Virus record (IMG/VR): IMGVR_UViG_3300017598_000612
Coordinates: 1 to 45,754 of that record
From: a virus
Direction: 5' to 3' (one strand)
DNA length: 45,754 bases
Within the stretch, counting starts at the first letter, position 1. Each line of letters begins with the position of its first letter. The position numbers were made by a program, and so were the translations under genes. Below, in pieces: positions 773 through 45,754 of the stretch. Under the pieces are notes generated by a model that worked only from the letters and a program-made list of their open reading frames with translations, ran no database searches and was not told the DNA's origin.

Positions 773-1999
773 TTAGAATAATCTTTTGCCTGGCCTTGCG
801 ATCTTTCTACCCCTGAAATGCGTATAAAGTGCATACCTAACAGCGTCCATACAATCATCATTTTCTTTTTTAGGTTGCTCTTTTTTGTTTTTGTCGTCCC
901 ATTCATACGCATATACTTCCTGCATGAAGTGTGGAGCCGCACCCTTTAAAACAAAAAACTTCTCATCTTTCATATACTGCTGAACCAATTCAATGCCTTC
1001 AATTACATCTTTTTTGCCGTTTTTGGCTCTGAATCTTCTTACGTACTCAGGTCTTGCTGTATCTGCATAGAAAACGATACCCCTATACTGTTTCATTATC
1101 TCTTTACGTTTAACATCCCACCAGTCGATCTCTTGATGTCTAGCGGCTACTTCGTGGACTAAATACACATTACCATCATGATCTACACCGAACACTACAA
1201 TCGAGCCATAGTGATCGTAGCCCCAATCAACACCACCAATATAAAACTTAAATTCTGGAACTGTATCCACAATAAGCTTATCTCTAAAACTGGTATAAAT
1301 TACACCATCGCTTGCAACCCATTTACCATGAATGGTTCTATCTTTCCTGAAACCATCTGGCATAGACTCGCTTAAACTTTCAATGTATTTATCTGGAACA
1401 AATCCACTATTACTTTTTGCATTATCCCATATATCGAAATGCCACGATTTAACTCTAATTGTACCGTCGTCAAATAGCGCACCATCCTTATCCACAAACT
1501 GTGTTTTAATTGGATGAGTAGGGTAATCAGGGTTGGTATCAAAGAACACTCTAGCACCCTCTCCTGAACATCTATTGAATGCTTCCTCTAAACTATTCTC
1601 ATGGTGTAATGTTACTTCATTACCAAACAGCCCATAAGCAGTCATTCCACGCATTGCCTTATATGATCCATAATTATCTGCACCAAACACACAAACAGTA
1701 TTACCAAATAGTTTAAACTCATTGTTTTTGTTGAGATCTACATTTAAGCCAAAAAAAGACTCTAAATCATCCAAACAATTCTTTTTAAGTGAAGCTGAAG
1801 TATAGCCAAGCATTAGAAATTTATAGCCCTTATTCTTAAATTTGAGTATATGATTAAGCCATAAAAACAACATGATAAAAGTTTTACCTGACCTAACTGA
1901 TCCTTCTAATATAGTTATAAATGGCTCATGTTTTTGGTCATATTCCCAGACTTGGACTTGTTTTTTATTGAATTTGCTAGATAGCTGTTTAATACTCAA
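773..1999 (-). CDS. terL: Terminase large subunit
   Basis: This 408-residue protein is the ATP-driven DNA packaging motor and headful nuclease. The N-terminal ATPase has a Walker A motif GSVRSGKT at residues 33-40 and a probable Walker B region around YGLFGNEV. The C-terminal RNase H-like nuclease shows GGVDWGYD, VHEVA, FYADTARPEY and a final DDCMDAVRYAL, supplying the acidic metal ligands. Length fits the PBSX/Terminase_6 class. The only sensible start is TTG at 1999, two bases after the stop of the preceding gene, so translation may be coupled. It works with the small subunit at 3768-4136 and the portal at 39387-40817. Confidence 0.95.
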   Translation of the reverse strand: MSIKQLSSKFNKKQVQVWEYDQKHEPFITILEGSVRSGKTFIMLFLWLNHILKFKNKGYKFLMLGYTSASLKKNCLDDLESFFGLNVDLNKNNEFKLFGNTVCVFGADNYGSYKAMRGMTAYGLFGNEVTLHHENSLEEAFNRCSGEGARVFFDTNPDYPTHPIKTQFVDKDGALFDDGTIRVKSWHFDIWDNAKSNSGFVPDKYIESLSESMPDGFRKDRTIHGKWVASDGVIYTSFRDKLIVDTVPEFKFYIGGVDWGYDHYGSIVVFGVDHDGNVYLVHEVAARHQEIDWWDVKRKEIMKQYRGIVFYADTARPEYVRRFRAKNGKKDVIEGIELVQQYMKDEKFFVLKGAAPHFMQEVYAYEWDDKNKKEQPKKENDDCMDAVRYALYTHFRGRKIARPGKRLF

Positions 2000-2736: not shown

Positions 2737-2869
2737 TTGTCACCTCACACTTACATGGTGAATGTTTAATTTCCTCTAGCTCAATAATTGTGCCTAACAC
2801 ACTAATTATAAGAAGGAAAGAAAGTATTATCGACATCATAATTAATCCCACTTTATCATCTTTATTCAT
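2729..2869 (-). CDS. Single-pass membrane protein, 46 residues
   Basis: The product starts MNKDDKVGLIMMSIILSFLL, giving a short charged N-terminus and a hydrophobic helix over residues about 8-27, followed by a soluble tail with a CKC motif. The start overlaps the TAA of the previous gene (TAATG), with GGAGG upstream. It belongs to a string of tiny genes before terL. No function can be assigned. Confidence 0.65.
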   Translation of the reverse strand: MNKDDKVGLIMMSIILSFLLIISVLGTIIELEEIKHSPCKCEVTNG

Positions 2870-3099
2870 TACCGCATCCTCCTAATTTTATCTAGTATCT
2901 GATGTAGATACATAATCTCGCTTGGCGCGCTCTCTTGAGAATGACGATTAATAAAACTCTCTAGTGTCCATAGTTCATGCCGGTCAAGTATAATCGCTTT
3001 ACGCTCTTTCTCTTTCTTGTCAGCTTGTTTATCAAGTAACACGTCAGCTAACTTTTTCACTTCGTGTTTTGGTAGATCTTTGTTTTTGATTTTAACCAT
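2869..3099 (-). CDS. Hypothetical charged protein, 76 residues
   Basis: This Lys/Glu-rich, mostly helical protein begins MVKIKNKDLPKHEVKK after an AAAGGAGAGTAAA ribosome-binding site and ends in a second helix (IMYLHQILDKIRRMR). It has no membrane segment or Cys pair. It is coupled to neighbours by an overlapping stop. It may be a small DNA- or protein-binding adaptor, but no family is recognised. Confidence 0.75.
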   Translation of the reverse strand: MVKIKNKDLPKHEVKKLADVLLDKQADKKEKERKAIILDRHELWTLESFINRHSQESAPSEIMYLHQILDKIRRMR

Positions 3100-3100
3100 T

Positions 3101-3376
3101 TTACTCTCCTTTCCTAATTAATTTAACATCATATTCATCATCTCCGTGTTGTTCTATTATTTTTAATATTGATCTGCATTCCTCACATGCAAAAAAATCT
3201 CCTTTTTCTACATCCATATATATGTCTGAATTTTTATTACATACAGGACAATTAAAATATTCGCTCACAACCTCACAACAAACCTCACAACATATCCTAC
3301 CTTTAACATAAATTTTGAATTCCTTCACCTCTGTACTCACATCCATAAATAGATATTTACCCTGTTCTGCTTTCAT
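3101..3376 (-). CDS. Zinc-ribbon protein sharing its N-terminus with the head fibre
   Basis: I chose the ATG at 3376, eight bases after GGAGA; a GTG two codons earlier is too close to that site. Of 91 residues, the first 16 (MKAEQGKYLFMDVSTE) match 14 of 16 residues of an internal segment of the LamG protein at 30371-31609. The rest holds Cys pairs, CCEVCC then CPVC and CEEC, typical of a double zinc ribbon. The N-terminal block looks copied from a structural gene, or both proteins share a small binding element. Function unknown. Confidence 0.75.
   Translation of the reverse strand: MKAEQGKYLFMDVSTEVKEFKIYVKGRICCEVCCEVVSEYFNCPVCNKNSDIYMDVEKGDFFACEECRSILKIIEQHGDDEYDVKLIRKGE
3329..3376. repeat. 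48-bp segment duplicated at 30524-30571
   Basis: By eye, 39 of 48 bases agree with 30524-30571 in the same orientation. Here the segment encodes the first 16 residues of the zinc-ribbon protein, ending exactly at its ATG; there it is internal to a LamG head-fibre gene. Most differences in the coding part are silent or conservative, as expected for a copied and then selected segment. Confidence 0.75.
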
Positions 3377-3387
3377 TCTCACTCTCC

Positions 3388-3609
3388 TTAAAATATAATA
3401 ATTTTACCTTGATTAACATCTTGCGACCTATATATCTTAACCCCACATATATAGATATACTTTTTTGATTTTGGGCTAAGATTTAATAGTTCCGCCTCAT
3501 TTTTTAACTGCTCATAATCACCGTTGTTTATTATTGCATTTATTGCGTGATTACAACTAAAAAAAGAGACTATACCGCCCAAGCTGACTTCATATTTTTG
3601 CTCTCTCAC
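3388..3609 (-). CDS. Hypothetical protein, 73 residues
   Basis: The start is GTG, with AGGAGAG just upstream. The sequence combines a short hydrophobic N-terminal part (GGIVSFFSCNHAINAIINN), a charged middle and a beta-prone end with two further cysteine or basic clusters. No family is recognised. It lies in the tiny-gene string between terS and terL. Confidence 0.65.
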   Translation of the reverse strand: MREQKYEVSLGGIVSFFSCNHAINAIINNGDYEQLKNEAELLNLSPKSKKYIYICGVKIYRSQDVNQGKIIIF

Positions 3610-3767: not shown

Positions 3768-4136
3768 TTAGTCATCATCTCCCATCGCCTTCAACAGCTC
3801 CTCAGCTTTATTTTCAGGCGTATCTATATTGTGCACCACCTGACGATCTACTAACCCATGATTAGCCTTTAAAAGAAATATCGCCATAGTTGGATTCCAC
3901 TCAGCTTTTAACCCTTTCTCCATTAGTGAATTCTTCTGTAATGCCTTGATTCTTTTTACTGTTACGGAAAACGCATTATGAATCTTACGCCATTCATTCA
4001 CAGTATCGATATTTATCTTAAGATGTAAAGCTAATCCTTCAGTAGTTGCTAATTGATCACTTTTCTCAATCTTATCAACATATTCATCAGCTTTTTTCTG
4101 TAATTTTTCATTGTATTTTGTAGGTCTTGCCATCAT
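3768..4136 (-). CDS. terS: Terminase small subunit
   Basis: The protein recognises packaging DNA and delivers it to TerL. It starts with ARPTKYNEKLQKKADEYVD, then a predicted helix-turn-helix (TTEGLALHLKINIDTVNEWR), followed by the family-typical KNSLMEKGLKAEWNPTMAIFLLKANHGLVDR and an acidic tail. I chose the ATG at 4136, near GGGGGC; ATGs at 4133 and 4145 are alternatives. A strong promoter ends about 40 bases upstream. The separation from terL by eight tiny genes is unusual, as the two normally adjoin. Confidence 0.9.
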   Translation of the reverse strand: MMARPTKYNEKLQKKADEYVDKIEKSDQLATTEGLALHLKINIDTVNEWRKIHNAFSVTVKRIKALQKNSLMEKGLKAEWNPTMAIFLLKANHGLVDRQVVHNIDTPENKAEELLKAMGDDD

Positions 4137-4175
4137 AGCCCCCATTCAGTCTATGCCCAATTAGTAACTTAAACT

Positions 4176-4204
4176 ATTATACACTATTTATTATCATTTG
4201 TCAA
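4176..4204 (-). promoter_or_regulatory. Consensus sigma70-type promoter of terS
   Basis: Leftward TTGACA (4204-4199), 17-base spacer, TATAAT (4181-4176): a perfect match to both consensus hexamers with the optimal spacing. It should drive terS and the genes down to terL. Confidence 0.9.
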
Positions 4205-4225
4205 ATAAAAGATGAAAGAAAGCTA

Positions 4226-4247
4226 ATGTCGCCATTTATAACGACAT
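4226..4247 (-). terminator. Hairpin downstream of tRNA-Tyr, possible terminator
   Basis: On the leftward strand ATGTCG and CGACAT form a 6-bp stem around a 10-base loop, followed by a T-rich but interrupted tract. It lies 40 bases beyond the tRNA 3' end, where a terminator or processing stem would be expected. The tract is poor, so this is a weak call. Confidence 0.3.
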
Positions 4248-4287
4248 CGAATACTACTTCTACATCTTGGTAGATTAGCTGGAAAAA

Positions 4288-4372
4288 TGGTGCGGTGCCT
4301 TGGACTTGAACCAAGAGTGTCTTAAGACGGGAGATTTACAGTCTCCTGAGTTACCAATTACTCTAACACCGC
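4288..4372 (-). tRNA. tRNA-Tyr (anticodon GUA)
   Basis: The leftward strand folds as a full class II tRNA. The acceptor GCGGTGT pairs with GCACCGC, followed by discriminator A and an encoded CCA. The D-arm is GAGT/ACTC, the anticodon stem GGAGA/TCTCC around CTGTAAA, the variable arm is long, and the T-arm CTTGG/CCAAG encloses TTCAAGT. The long variable arm is normal for bacterial tRNA-Tyr. Phage tRNAs commonly support translation of AT-rich late genes. It lies directly downstream of a strong promoter and a terminator-like hairpin, with the first tRNA base only three bases after the U-tract. Confidence 0.95.
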
Positions 4373-4375
4373 ATC

Positions 4376-4416
4376 AAAAAAATAGGGTGCACAGTGGAGA
4401 GATACTGCACACCCTA
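4376..4416 (-). terminator. Strong intrinsic terminator or attenuator before tRNA-Tyr
   Basis: In the leftward transcript, a 13-bp stem (4416-4404 with 4395-4383, two G-U pairs inside) closes an 8-base loop AUCUCUCC and is followed by seven uridines (4382-4376). This is a textbook intrinsic terminator. It lies between a consensus promoter and the tRNA, so tRNA transcription must read through it or come from some other start. Confidence 0.8.
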
Positions 4417-7670: not shown

Positions 7671-7722
7671 AGTAACTCCTTTTTTGCACGATAACAAGAC
7701 TTATGTTACTGTGCATAATCAT

Positions 7723-7750
7723 AGTTTACTTATCAATTAATCTTTGTCAA
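7723..7750 (-). promoter_or_regulatory. Sigma70-type promoter of the lysis gene run
   Basis: Leftward TTGACA (7750-7745), 16-base spacer, TAAACT (7728-7723). The -35 box lies inside the last codons of the gene at 7737-7892. The -10 is less perfect than in the other copies. Confidence 0.7.
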
Positions 7751-7892
7751 GAACTTTTTCATAATAATTTTTAGAGTTGTCTCTAAACCCTATTTTACTA
7801 GGTGTTCCAAACCATTCTACATCTACACTCTCCAGATTATTTACCCATAAAAAATGGGCTAAATCAGTAATATCCTGCCAGTTAATCCTCAT
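7737..7892 (-). CDS. Hypothetical protein, 51 residues
   Basis: I chose the ATG at 7892, which overlaps the end of the pentapeptide gene by 11 bases; the longer frame only extends inside that gene. The product begins MRINWQDITDLAHFLWVNN and ends in LDKD, whose codons double as a promoter -35 box. The ribosome-binding site is weak, so expression may rely on coupling. No family is recognised. Confidence 0.6.
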   Translation of the reverse strand: MRINWQDITDLAHFLWVNNLESVDVEWFGTPSKIGFRDNSKNYYEKVLDKD

Positions 7893-10874: not shown

Positions 10875-10899
10875 ATGTTTTTTTTATTTTTATTTTCAC

Positions 10900-10927
10900 T
10901 TGACAAATATTAATTTATCAGTACAAT
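10900..10927 (+). promoter_or_regulatory. Rightward early promoter of a divergent pair
   Basis: TTGACA (10900-10905), 16-base spacer, TACAAT (10922-10927), reading into the primase module. The same hexamers and spacing occur in the leftward partner at 10847-10874. Confidence 0.88.
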
Positions 10928-10955
10928 TATATTATCATTATTAATGGAGAGTAAT

Positions 10956-12479: not shown

Positions 12480-12535
12480 ATCTAGCAATAAAATCAATCA
12501 CTTATAATTATTTTGCATTTTTCTTTATAAAACAC

Positions 12536-12563
12536 TTTACAAGTCGTAATTTATAAGTACAAT
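12536..12563 (+). promoter_or_regulatory. Sigma70-type promoter of the recombination genes
   Basis: TTTACA (12536-12541), 16-base spacer, TACAAT (12558-12563), in the 141-base gap after the resolvase. The -35 has one mismatch. A leader of about 50 bases precedes the AAAGGAGAGAGTC site of the gene at 12621. Confidence 0.75.
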
Positions 12564-12620
12564 ATGATTATGGGGTTGAGGGAATCCCACTGATCATTAA
12601 CCAAGTGAAAGGAGAGAGTC

Positions 12621-15373: not shown

Positions 15374-15763
15374 TTTCTTAATTAAGTCTTTTAATTCGCA
15401 TAAATGAAGGGGTAAACCTCTACTCTTAAACGAAGATCCACCAAAATTGCTAACAGCTTTTACGTATATTTTAGCCCATCCATAGTACCACCATCTAAGC
15501 CATTTTGATTCTTTTTTAACTGCTAAACACATATTGTCATAAAATAGTTTATCCGCCCATTTTTTATGTTCCTTAGTACCACCTAGATGATACGCACAAT
15601 CGTGTTTTTTACATGCTGTTTTGAATACCATTTCTGGAATAATAGCCGCTAATATTTTGCAATTATCAGGACCACAACCAGACCGCCCTAGGAAGTCTTT
15701 TTCTTTATTTGTAAGCCCTGCCCATATGTGTTTAAAATAAATTTTGTATGTTTTGTAATCCAT
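15362..15763 (-). CDS. Phospholipase A2-like protein
   Basis: I chose the ATG at 15763, seven bases after GGGAG. Residues about 30-80 hold the core seen in secreted phospholipase A2: CGPDNC, then KTACKKHDCAYHLGGT with the His-Asp dyad at residues 54-55, and a later aspartate in WADKLFYDNMC. Phospholipases A2 hydrolyse the sn-2 ester of phospholipids. It is the last gene of the late tail transcript, so it could be a virion enzyme or help lysis. Some residues of the calcium loop cannot be confirmed by eye; activity is inference. Confidence 0.6.
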   Translation of the reverse strand: MDYKTYKIYFKHIWAGLTNKEKDFLGRSGCGPDNCKILAAIIPEMVFKTACKKHDCAYHLGGTKEHKKWADKLFYDNMCLAVKKESKWLRWWYYGWAKIYVKAVSNFGGSSFKSRGLPLHLCELKDLIKKLKR

Positions 15764-15789
15764 TTTTAATACTCCCGTAACATTCAATT

Positions 15790-16122
15790 CTATTTTTTAT
15801 CTTGCCTCATTGTGTAGATTTTTTTTTTAATATCATACCTGTAAATGTGCTTGTTTATTTCTTTTACGCTATCTTCAATTCTGAATAAACTAGCTTTAGT
15901 TTCTCTTTGAAACTCTTGCTGTATCATATCAATTTTTTTAAGCTTTTCGCTTGTTTGTGTCTTATACTCTTCAAGTTTTTCCTTTAAATGCTCGACTTCT
16001 TTTTGCTGTAAAATCCATGCTGTGGTTGCTGAAGCGGTTACACCAACTATAAAGAATATGACACCAAGAAATACTTTTGCACGATTAATGAATTTTACAA
16101 GATCTATTTCATTTTTTGACAT
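15790..16122 (-). CDS. Membrane-anchored coiled-coil protein, possible i-spanin
   Basis: A 110-residue protein with a polar N-terminus, one transmembrane helix over residues about 16-37 (AKVFLGVIFFIVGVTASATT) and a long coiled coil (EVEHLKEKLEEYKTQTSEKL onward). That topology is that of Rz-type inner-membrane spanins, which span the periplasm to an outer-membrane lipoprotein. A candidate partner is the TSP3 lipoprotein at 5571-5753, although the genes are not adjacent. A structural or XhlA-like role is also possible. Confidence 0.55.
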   Translation of the reverse strand: MSKNEIDLVKFINRAKVFLGVIFFIVGVTASATTAWILQQKEVEHLKEKLEEYKTQTSEKLKKIDMIQQEFQRETKASLFRIEDSVKEINKHIYRYDIKKKIYTMRQDKK

Positions 16123-17258: not shown

Positions 17259-19043
17259 TTATGTGTTTAATTTATTACTAAAAATTCCATTATCAAAACT
17301 ATCCAAACTAGATGTAGAATCGAATTTAAAAAACCCGTCACCCTCTACGGTAATTGGTAGAATCCAAACTACTCTCACACCTGCCTGTGCTGCCTGATCC
17401 ATTAATTCAAAAATAAAATCTTGAATTTGTTGTGTGGATTGTGTTGCTGAAGTCAATAGTTCAATTTGTGCAGGGTATTGCTCATTAACCTTAATTGTTG
17501 CCCCTGGATTAAATATATTCCATAAAGATAAGATATCGTTTAATGTACCTCTACTATTATTTATACCTACTTGGCCCTTTAAAAATATTCGGTATGTATC
17601 GTCATCAAATCCAGATCTATCCTGACCGATTATAGCCCCTATACGATCTAAATTAACGCCCTCTTGCGTGTCTATATCCCATGCTGAATATAAATCGTAA
17701 GTATCATCCTCTGTTTGCTGTAATGGTCCTACTAAAGCAGCACAAATTTGCTCCACGTTTGAACCTTGTCTGTATTGCCTAATTAATCTACCTTGTGCGG
17801 TTGCGACGTGTGTATCAATGTAGCTTACTTTAAAATCACCTGCAAGAGAGGTTACTGAAAGAGCAATAGCAATTGTTGGATTGTATGATAAAGTTGCGCT
17901 ACCCTCTACGGTCCCAATTTCGCTTGTACAAGACCTAAATTGTATATCCTCACTAGCACTCGCTAAAATGTCAAAAGTCGGTATATTGCTAACCCATGTC
18001 GTATCACTCGATTTTTTACATTCAAAACCTGTTGGTGCAACTATACCAGAAACAGTGCGTGTGGAAGTGTCTATATTTTCAACCTCTATAGTATAAATTG
18101 CGGAACAAGCCCCTTTTGATACACTACCAAAATTCTCACTTGGTTTAACATCACAATAAATATCCTCTGTGTTAGTACCTGCAAAAGAAACTTGTGAGGG
18201 GATTGAAAGAGTTGCTGAATTTTCATATTTAAATTTATAGGTTTCTGATCCAGCCGGACCCGGTACACCATCAATAGTATTATAGAATTCGGTCCCTGAC
18301 CAAGCAAGATTAAATAATAGCCCACTTGTACTAGCTTTAGTTGCTAGAGTTTGTCTATTGTCCCAAACTTTAACATCTGATACATGAATATTGTTGTAAT
18401 ATGCGCTAGATTGTAATGCACCTATCTGGAGTCCTAATGTTGTATCAATTTGTAGCGCACCAGATAAGCCATTGTAATCCCTCCCCTCTAAATCTGTTTC
18501 AAGTCGAGTAAAGGGTGTTTCAACAGTAGTTAGTATAGCCTCATGCCATCCACCATCATTATATGTATTTGTTGTTGCGACTGAATAACTAGTATAAAGT
18601 GATCTATAATTCCAATATAATTTTCCATCTGTTTTTAATGTAACACCTATTACAGGATTTCCACCTCTTGAATCTGGTATCTCCACAAGTGGCGTGTCAT
18701 TTAAGGGTAACGAAATAATTTTAAATCGAATATATATAGTCCCACTCGGAAAACTTGTTGGAAAACTATTTCTTTCTAAAACTGAACTAGAGCCATTAAA
18801 AATCGCGTGGTCTGTGTCCCATGTTGTATCTGTATTTGTCATTGTTCCGGCTGCGGCTGCATCTAAACTGAAACTATCATTTCCAGTATTCCAATTAGCC
18901 CCATCATCGTCACTCCATTTTACACCACTAACGGCATTTGTAAGCGTTACATTTTCCGTACTCGCTCCATCATTCACCACAATTACATTTTGCTGTAATC
19001 CATTTTTTAAATCTATACTACTAGTATTAACACTTATACTCAT
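17259..19043 (-). CDS. Baseplate wedge protein (DUF2612) fused to lectin-like and Ig-like domains
   Basis: Residues about 405-594 form the DUF2612 baseplate domain: VATAQGRLIRQYRQGSNVEQ, YDLYSAWDIDTQEGVNLDRI and RIFLKGQVGINNSRGTLNDI. In front lies an unusual extension. Residues about 55-260 look like a concanavalin A/LamG jelly roll (HAIFNGSSSVLERN, then ILTTVETP and IHVSDVKVWDN), and residues about 290-400 like one or two Ig-like beta sandwiches. Typical DUF2612 proteins are about 200 residues, so the sugar-binding part was probably added by fusion. It sits beside baseplate J as expected. Confidence 0.8.
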   Translation of the reverse strand: MSISVNTSSIDLKNGLQQNVIVVNDGASTENVTLTNAVSGVKWSDDDGANWNTGNDSFSLDAAAAGTMTNTDTTWDTDHAIFNGSSSVLERNSFPTSFPSGTIYIRFKIISLPLNDTPLVEIPDSRGGNPVIGVTLKTDGKLYWNYRSLYTSYSVATTNTYNDGGWHEAILTTVETPFTRLETDLEGRDYNGLSGALQIDTTLGLQIGALQSSAYYNNIHVSDVKVWDNRQTLATKASTSGLLFNLAWSGTEFYNTIDGVPGPAGSETYKFKYENSATLSIPSQVSFAGTNTEDIYCDVKPSENFGSVSKGACSAIYTIEVENIDTSTRTVSGIVAPTGFECKKSSDTTWVSNIPTFDILASASEDIQFRSCTSEIGTVEGSATLSYNPTIAIALSVTSLAGDFKVSYIDTHVATAQGRLIRQYRQGSNVEQICAALVGPLQQTEDDTYDLYSAWDIDTQEGVNLDRIGAIIGQDRSGFDDDTYRIFLKGQVGINNSRGTLNDILSLWNIFNPGATIKVNEQYPAQIELLTSATQSTQQIQDFIFELMDQAAQAGVRVVWILPITVEGDGFFKFDSTSSLDSFDNGIFSNKLNT

Positions 19044-30370: not shown

Positions 30371-31609
30371 TTAACTCCATACCGCGTAATTATTAGAATC
30401 AAATACATGATTCCCATTTGAATCTAATACTAAATTATCGCCATTATTTATAAAATTATGAATTGTTATTGATTGTTGACCTGTTAATGGACTACTGAAT
30501 AACAACATATTCTTGTATTGAAATTCTGTTGATACATCTATAAATAGATATTCACCTTGCTCTGCTTTCATGTCGCTATAACTCTGTGCTATACCATAGG
30601 AAGTAGTCACATCATGCAGTATATGTTCTGTGTCTGCCGCCTGAACTAATGCGGCTACATTCCAAGCCTCATCGCCTGTATCATATGTTGTCGCACCTAG
30701 TATATGTTTAGTTTCACAGCCATTGTTGTATGTTCCTGCAGGGTGTTCAGATTGCTTGGTATATCCAGAAATAGAACTAACTACAGGTGTATCAGAAACA
30801 TATGGAACATATACTTCTAGTAGCCCGGTTGCATCATCTGTATATCTATCACAGCCGTTTAATTCATTGTAATGAAAATAATCCTGTGTTCCCCAAGTTA
30901 TGTCGGTGGGTGTTCCGTGGTTTGCGTTGCCTGAGACGTCGTAACAGGATTTTTGTAGTGGATAAGATGAGCCACAAGGAAAATTAACATCATATGCGTT
31001 AAAAGCTGCTGGAGATACAGCACCTACTCTCATTCCGATTAACATCGGCTGACTATTCCACCGATACACTAGGTAGTTAACAGGTAGAGTATTTCCAATT
31101 ACAGTTGTTCCATTTATGTCTATAAACACTTTATTGCCTATAACACCATATGTAACATCATTCAATCCAGGATATATCATTGTTCCACTTGCAACATATG
31201 AATTATTACCATTTATCTTAATTTGAAATACAATTTCATTTGTAAGAATGTACATACTGAAACCATCTTGACCGGAGGAAAGACTTTTAATACCATTTTT
31301 ATCAAAGATAGCAGAAAAGGCACCGGATGCCTCAACCGGATCTATTATCTGGATTGTAGAGCTCCAATCGCCCTGAACAGTGTAACCATCCAATGCACCA
31401 CAACTAACATAGCTACTAGTTCCGTTAAAATCAGCACAAGCACTATCAACCAATCTAGCAGGTTCAAGTGTGGCTGTATTCTTATCTAGTGATTCTAAAC
31501 CATTAGAATTAAAACCTAGACTGCTAAACGTCCAACTTAATGCACTATTTAGCAGCCTATTTAATGCGCTACTGATATGACTAAATATTGTATTTAAGTA
31601 TAAAAACAT
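30371..31609 (-). CDS. LamG-type lectin-like head fibre protein
   Basis: Residues about 50-210 of this 412-residue protein look like a concanavalin A/LamG domain: ADFNGTSSYVSCGALDGYTV, then AIFDKNGIKSLSSGQDGF and GVIGNKVFIDINGTTVIGN. A Cys- and Tyr-rich C-terminal half follows. It includes DMKAEQGEYLFIDVSTEFQY, nearly repeated as the N-terminus of the zinc-ribbon protein at 3101-3376. The next gene upstream encodes a spike base, so this is probably a head spike or fibre that binds cell-surface glycans. A tail role cannot be excluded. Confidence 0.7.
   Translation of the reverse strand: MFLYLNTIFSHISSALNRLLNSALSWTFSSLGFNSNGLESLDKNTATLEPARLVDSACADFNGTSSYVSCGALDGYTVQGDWSSTIQIIDPVEASGAFSAIFDKNGIKSLSSGQDGFSMYILTNEIVFQIKINGNNSYVASGTMIYPGLNDVTYGVIGNKVFIDINGTTVIGNTLPVNYLVYRWNSQPMLIGMRVGAVSPAAFNAYDVNFPCGSSYPLQKSCYDVSGNANHGTPTDITWGTQDYFHYNELNGCDRYTDDATGLLEVYVPYVSDTPVVSSISGYTKQSEHPAGTYNNGCETKHILGATTYDTGDEAWNVAALVQAADTEHILHDVTTSYGIAQSYSDMKAEQGEYLFIDVSTEFQYKNMLLFSSPLTGQQSITIHNFINNGDNLVLDSNGNHVFDSNNYAVWS
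30524..30571. repeat. 48-bp segment duplicated at 3329-3376
   Basis: This is the internal partner of the segment at 3329-3376, with 39 of 48 bases identical. It encodes the C-terminal MKAEQGEYLFIDVSTE of the lectin-like fibre protein. Confidence 0.75.
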
Positions 31610-41622: not shown

Positions 41623-41880
41623 TCACCCCCTTAATTTTTTTAAATCTTCTTCTAATCGCATATGAAAAGTATCTTCACCATCATCGCCACTGACTAACCA
41701 ATCGATACGCTGTGCATAAACGTGAGCTTCCTTTAACAACTTAATAGCATACTTAAATTCTCTCAATGTTCCTTCATGGTAGCTGAAATGCTCTTCTTTA
41801 TTTTCGGCTATAATTTGCTCAATCTCATCAGCTATGTGTTGGATATTATACTGCTTATACTCGAAATGTCCACCACTCAC
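41623..41880 (-). CDS. Conserved phage protein, 85 residues
   Basis: The GTG start follows AAGGAGGTTTAA. The sequence SGGHFEYKQYNIQHIADEIE and RIDWLVSGDDGEDTFHMRLE belongs to a conserved small protein found in many phages and prophages with unknown role. It is largely helical and acidic. Confidence 0.8.
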   Translation of the reverse strand: MSGGHFEYKQYNIQHIADEIEQIIAENKEEHFSYHEGTLREFKYAIKLLKEAHVYAQRIDWLVSGDDGEDTFHMRLEEDLKKLRG

Positions 41881-45633: not shown

Positions 45634-45754
45634 CAAAACCTCTCCCTAAATTAACAAAGTAACAGCCTAATATTATACATACACATTAGACTTTGTCAAG
45701 ACCTTTTTTACCGTGGATCTCAAAATAGAGCAGAAATATACAATTTGAAAGTGA
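45634..45754. repeat. Terminal direct repeat, right copy
   Basis: These 121 bases are identical to positions 1-121. They contain a second copy of the promoter (45672-45699, leftward) that reads into the metallophosphoesterase gene, and a partial copy of the 3' end of the gene at 53-703. Confidence 0.95.

Follow-up and report, generated by a model that had tools for sequence, protein, structure and literature searches.

Phage mosaicism through recombination without long homology has been described, in the parts of those accounts drawn on here (PMC3029335; PMC3233612), and the closest described case is that of gp68 of mycobacteriophage Island3, a small orphan of 85 amino acids whose last 18 residues (approximately 50-60 bp) copy the end of the upstream gene. 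As far as that description goes, a sister phage almost identical to Island3 lacks the gp68 gene (PMC3029335), just as the sampled relatives of the window lack the small gene investigated here. In Island3, however, the copies lie at the C-termini of adjacent genes, whereas the copy reported here is N-terminal, provides the start codon, and comes from within a virion gene at a distance of 27 kb. At a larger scale, domain mosaicism in phages, according to the portions used of the survey by Smug et al. (2023; PMC10684548), consists of fragments common to otherwise unrelated proteins, with fibres as a hotspot, and the locus described here is most likely a smaller-scale instance of it. No published account of this small gene and fibre pair was found in the literature, which was covered mostly at the level of titles and the starts of abstracts.

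The stretch of DNA analyzed, referred to as the window (45,754 bases), contains genes for tail sheath, tape measure, baseplate, portal, major head protein and terminase, and its tail sheath, baseplate and other virion genes indicate a contractile-tailed phage. The window begins and ends with an identical direct repeat of 121 bases (1-121 and 45634-45754), so that its ends probably join into a circle. The features relevant to this study are the following.

773-1999, minus strand: terminase large subunit, downstream of the variable cassette (PHROG 2, E 7.6e-48)
2869-3099, minus strand: next gene and lower cassette border, conserved in the sister phage (43% over 72 aa, L009:9078-9551)
3101-3376, minus strand: small Cys-rich gene, zinc-ribbon-like, 91 aa, with fibre-derived start (CxxC pairs, codon usage, weak profile matches)
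3176-3250, minus strand: CPxC-x17-CxxC stretch, a weak LysW-like zinc-ribbon pattern (NCBIfam NF041070)
3329-3376, minus strand: fibre-derived segment, codons 1-16 of the small gene (39/48 nt, 14/16 aa)
3384-3389, minus strand: ribosome-binding site AAGGAG, 7 nt ahead of the small-gene ATG (direct sequence reading)
3768-4145, minus strand: terminase small subunit, upstream of the variable cassette (PHROG 606, E 2.4e-12)
4176-4204, minus strand: sigma-70-type promoter ahead of the terminase small subunit gene, TTGACA-17-TATAAT (12/12 consensus)
30371-31609, minus strand: fibre-like virion gene of the donor family, 412 aa (homologues 50% and 52% identical in two other phages)
30524-30571, minus strand: fibre segment homologous to the small-gene start, residues 347-362 (sequence match, fibre alignment)

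Between the genes for the small and large terminase subunits, genes are densely packed on a single strand, and the small gene is one of them. The promoter ahead of the terminase small subunit gene may drive the operon; in the window as a whole, promoter-like sites show no excess (11 versus a shuffle mean of 9.9). At 4176-4416, immediately ahead of the gene for the terminase small subunit, a strong terminator-like hairpin is followed by this full-consensus promoter. Elsewhere, dispersed repeats around TTGTCAAG/CTTGACAA with AT-rich flanks occur on both strands (37-75, 7714-7759, 10892-10935 and 12535-12572) and are probably a set of related promoters. Beside the terminase large subunit gene, the C-terminal part of the product of 53-703 matches the N-terminal family of dATP/dGTP diphosphohydrolases.

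Codons 1-16 of the small gene (3329-3376) and codons 347-362 of the fibre gene (30524-30571) are identical at 39 of 48 bases and at 14 of 16 residues, which confirms the agreement reported in the initial annotation, with which the translations of both reading frames also concur. Among all 16-residue windows from frames of at least 60 codons in the window, this pair has the highest score; the runner-up among unrelated pairs, at 12/16, involves a poly-Phe low-complexity frame. In 200 residue shuffles of the pools of reading frames the maximum was 8/16, versus 14/16 observed, and blastn inside the window returns the small gene and the fibre gene with an E of 3.9e-10 over 38 bases. As a control, the same 16-residue comparison was applied to 13 sources, namely, the window and 12 other phage loci, with short or near-duplicate loci left out, and with windows of fewer than nine residue types and pairs less than 300 nt apart excluded. 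The best pairs reached 8-10/16 in 11 of the 12 loci, and the remaining one, L009, gave 16/16 between two adjoining duplicated genes. The segments of the small gene and of the fibre therefore share a common ancestor.

The match is also sharply delimited. Upstream of the ATG the observed score is reached by 197 of 400 nulls, in line with the earlier statement that the similarity ends precisely at the start codon, and past codon 16 the observed extension score is reached by 112 of 400 nulls, so that the match is confined to 16 codons and the rest of the two proteins is unrelated, as had been proposed. This amounts to a homologous fragment of 16 codons between otherwise unrelated proteins. A longer copied segment, suggested by a gapped alignment with frameshifts to approximately base 72, was discarded, since the anchored extension is that same within-null result (112/400) and free local alignment also stays within the null (97/1000 and 385/1000).

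The annotation would have failed had the motif proved to be common in unrelated phage proteins, and this was not the case. Scans that demand exact pattern matches, made in collections that may omit very near relatives of the window, recovered from 2.9 million viral contigs a single stretch for the degenerate motif AEQGxYLFxD and three for the looser ExGxYLF[IM]DV, namely, the fibres of two phages, G001 and G002, and L036. The latter is a chance match in an alternative frame over another gene, which resembles that of a very-short-patch repair endonuclease. With only two same-family fibres and one chance frame among 2.9 million contigs, the idea of a common low-information motif was rejected. 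A tblastn search with a 28-aa piece of the fibre against 50,697 phage records returned nothing at E values up to 10.

The fibre homologue of G001 (L003) was located by the degenerate motif scan. G002 (L009), found by a terminase search, is a sister phage syntenic with the window nearly throughout, and its fibre is encoded at L033:1492-2820. In the alignment of the three fibres, each carries the segment collinearly and at the same position, with MKAEQGEYLFIDVS in the window, MVAEQGEYLFIDVS in G001 and MIAERGNYLFIDVS in G002, and the segment belongs to the conserved blocks of the fibre C-terminal domain. Scans for this domain gave no family member beyond G001 in viral contigs and none in genome contigs, and the 50,697 phage records yielded no tblastn match to the window and G001 fibres at E values up to 0.01. 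No profile supports the label 'lectin-like' that had been given to this protein, and the name 'head fibre' follows from gene position only; AlphaFold2 returned a pLDDT of 29.

The small gene has a different distribution. It was found in none of five related records (G001, G002, G003, G005 and G006), three of which, G003, G005 and G006, are shorter and may be fragments, and the only match of the small protein in G001 and G002 is the fibre itself. In the 9-kb record G003 the genes for the small and large terminase subunits abut. In G002, the locus of the small gene is occupied by an unrelated ORF, which points to a replaceable cassette: ORFs of 33 and 76 aa, together with an orphan stretch, fill the interval between the terminase small subunit gene and the homologue of 2869-3099. 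That homologue (L009:9078-9554) reads in frame from the upstream orphan stretch, which contains Cys codons, as if two genes had been fused or one split. Both of the two related fibres retain the segment, and their records yielded no small gene. Copying, as judged from these comparisons, therefore ran from fibre to small gene, with the fibre as the original site of the segment and the small gene as its recipient.

Two further differences among these phages were recorded. The window has a single gene at 41626-41880, and the sister has two neighbouring copies (L009:15236-15544 and 15721-15990) with at least 16 identical residues in common. The protein encoded at 17259-19043, in the baseplate region, matches G001 over residues 1-305 (47%) and G002 over residues 1-63 and 263-594, but not in the middle, and thus looks domain-swapped.

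The recipient is an intact reading frame that appears to be translated, with a coding signal of 0.21 bits per codon in its own frame, as opposed to -0.77 and -1.30 in the remaining frames, and with a codon usage that resembles that of the phage's other genes. Its ATG is likely the true start, as suggested by the AAGGAG located 7 nt upstream. The description as a zinc ribbon holds for the cysteine pattern: the protein has the pairs C30/C33, C43/C46 and C64/C67, the latter two forming the knuckles C43PVC46 and C64EEC67 at ribbon spacing. It does not hold at the level of profiles, where neither zinc ribbons nor LysW/ArgW carriers reached the curated cut-offs, with NF041070 (LysW/ArgW) at E 1.1e-3 and 19 bits, where the cut-off is 75, and Elf1 at 14.2 bits, where it is 29.8. 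Zinc-ribbon carriers of the LysW/ArgW type are characterized by an EDWGE-type C-terminus; the small protein has a similar CPxC...CxxC pattern in its second half but lacks such a C-terminus. On its cysteine pattern, the small protein probably binds zinc. AlphaFold2 without an alignment gave a pLDDT of 45, and PADLOC gave no match. Three further short proteins with double CxxC motifs are encoded by the phage (41436-41618, 41884-42048 and 42192-42365), all conserved in G002, and small ribbon-like genes are therefore usual in this lineage.

The initial annotation had proposed a gene born by fusing a copied structural segment to a zinc ribbon, and had suggested searching for each half separately. 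The segment was indeed recovered in both related fibres, but the Cys-rich half was never found alone, so that the fusion is only likely; it may have added the segment to an older small gene or may have produced the whole gene in a single step. For this half, nothing convincing came from 8-mer scans of viral and genome contigs, from PDB sequences or from phmmer against 3650 ORFs of the compared loci, and no homologue devoid of the fibre fragment turned up. The spacing pattern matched only once, in L042, where a repetitive ORF rich in Ser and Ala gives a chance frame, and a CCEVV resemblance in a Cys-rich ORF of G001 (E 4.8) was also taken as chance. Using tblastn against the 50,697 phage records, the whole small protein gave nothing at E values up to 1. 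A tblastn search for the Cys-rich half gave one weak match, MT837271 (E 2).

The codons of the segment bear on the identity of the donor. K2 (AAA) and L9 (CTA) are common only to the small gene and the window fibre, and Q5 (CAG) and S14 (AGT) are common to the small gene and the G001 fibre. Over the 48 bases, the small gene has 39 identities with the window fibre, 35 with G001 and 33 with G002, while the fibres have 34, 36 and 31 among themselves. Because its codons are split between the window and G001 fibres, the donor would be closely related or ancestral to the present fibre rather than identical to it. Five of the seven changed codons are synonymous (binomial P 0.013 versus a neutral expectation of 25%), and this means that at least one of the copies has been constrained at the protein level. 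Of the changes seen in the small gene alone, sorted by eye from the codon alignment, three are synonymous and two non-synonymous, which is not distinct from neutral (P 0.10). Constraint on the fibre before the transfer suffices to account for the synonymous excess, although constraint on the peptide in the small gene is also possible; as the fibre side alone explains the pattern, the codons do not demonstrate that the peptide is useful to the small protein.

We consider the most probable explanation, with a probability of about 0.75, to be that some 16 fibre codons recombined onto the 5' end of a small Cys-rich gene within a variable cassette and persist there as a passive relic. The alternative of a functional docking or mimic module, by which the small zinc-ribbon protein would bind the partner of the fibre, be it a structural protein, a chaperone or a receptor, draws on the position of the segment in a conserved block of the fibre C-terminal domain and on residues little changed since the split, with most changed codons synonymous. 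Yet the small gene that bears the peptide occurs in one genome only, no second piece of their own fibre at 10/16 residues or better was seen in the examined pieces of G001 or G002, and the private changes are near-neutral. Nothing in our analyses speaks for the shared docking motif suggested earlier, about which the codon pattern is uninformative, and we regard it as unlikely. A slightly smaller chance is given to its extension, a transplantable recognition module of the fibre C-terminus reused to recruit a small zinc protein, made in the terminase operon, either to the partner of the fibre or to virions under assembly.

That the match stops exactly at an ATG behind a ribosome-binding site would also suit a common DNA or RNA signal, regulatory or recombinational, rather than a peptide. 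Such a signal is very improbable, however, as the differences fall 2, 1 and 6 times at the three codon positions with residues mostly kept, the related fibres conserve residues over bases (31-36/48 bases identical), and no third copy of the segment DNA was found within the window. Nor is a chimeric metagenomic contig readily believed, even though the window is an IMG/VR-type virus record and its relatives lack the small gene: 9 of the 48 bases differ between the copies, which speaks against a single set of reads having been used at both places, the gene is closely flanked by others on its strand and has a ribosome-binding site of its own and phage-like codon usage, and the record carries a 121-bp terminal direct repeat. 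Least credible of all are copying from small gene to fibre, or convergence. K2, present only in the small gene and the window fibre, could reflect a later gene conversion in either direction, but as the main explanation reverse copying is refuted by the related fibres, which carry the segment in records where the small gene was not found, and convergence is excluded by the extent of identity in residues and bases. In diversity-generating retroelements, differences are confined to template adenines; here, AGT/TCA and A/G changes occur in both directions, and a template and variable repeat was discarded.

Under the preferred reading of a recombined relic, a piece of approximately 16 codons would have come from the phage's own fibre lineage or from a co-infecting relative, and non-homologous or micro-homology recombination would have made it the beginning of a small Cys-rich gene, in the variable cassette between the two terminase subunit genes. 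The piece would have supplied an in-frame ATG, 7 nt past a ribosome-binding site, as the present start codon, and the 16 fibre residues would thereby have become the N-terminus of the small protein, most plausibly as a passive relic and not as a binding module. Selection would then keep the frame open and translated.

This is a clean and polarized case in which the start codon and first 16 residues of a phage gene were taken from inside a virion gene 27 kb away. In the portions used of the survey of domain mosaicism, the sequence criterion is at least 50 aa, and a segment of 16 aa falls far below detection (PMC10684548). Since that survey is blind to fragments of less than 50 aa, the contribution of micro-mosaicism to the origin of small orphan genes may be underestimated.
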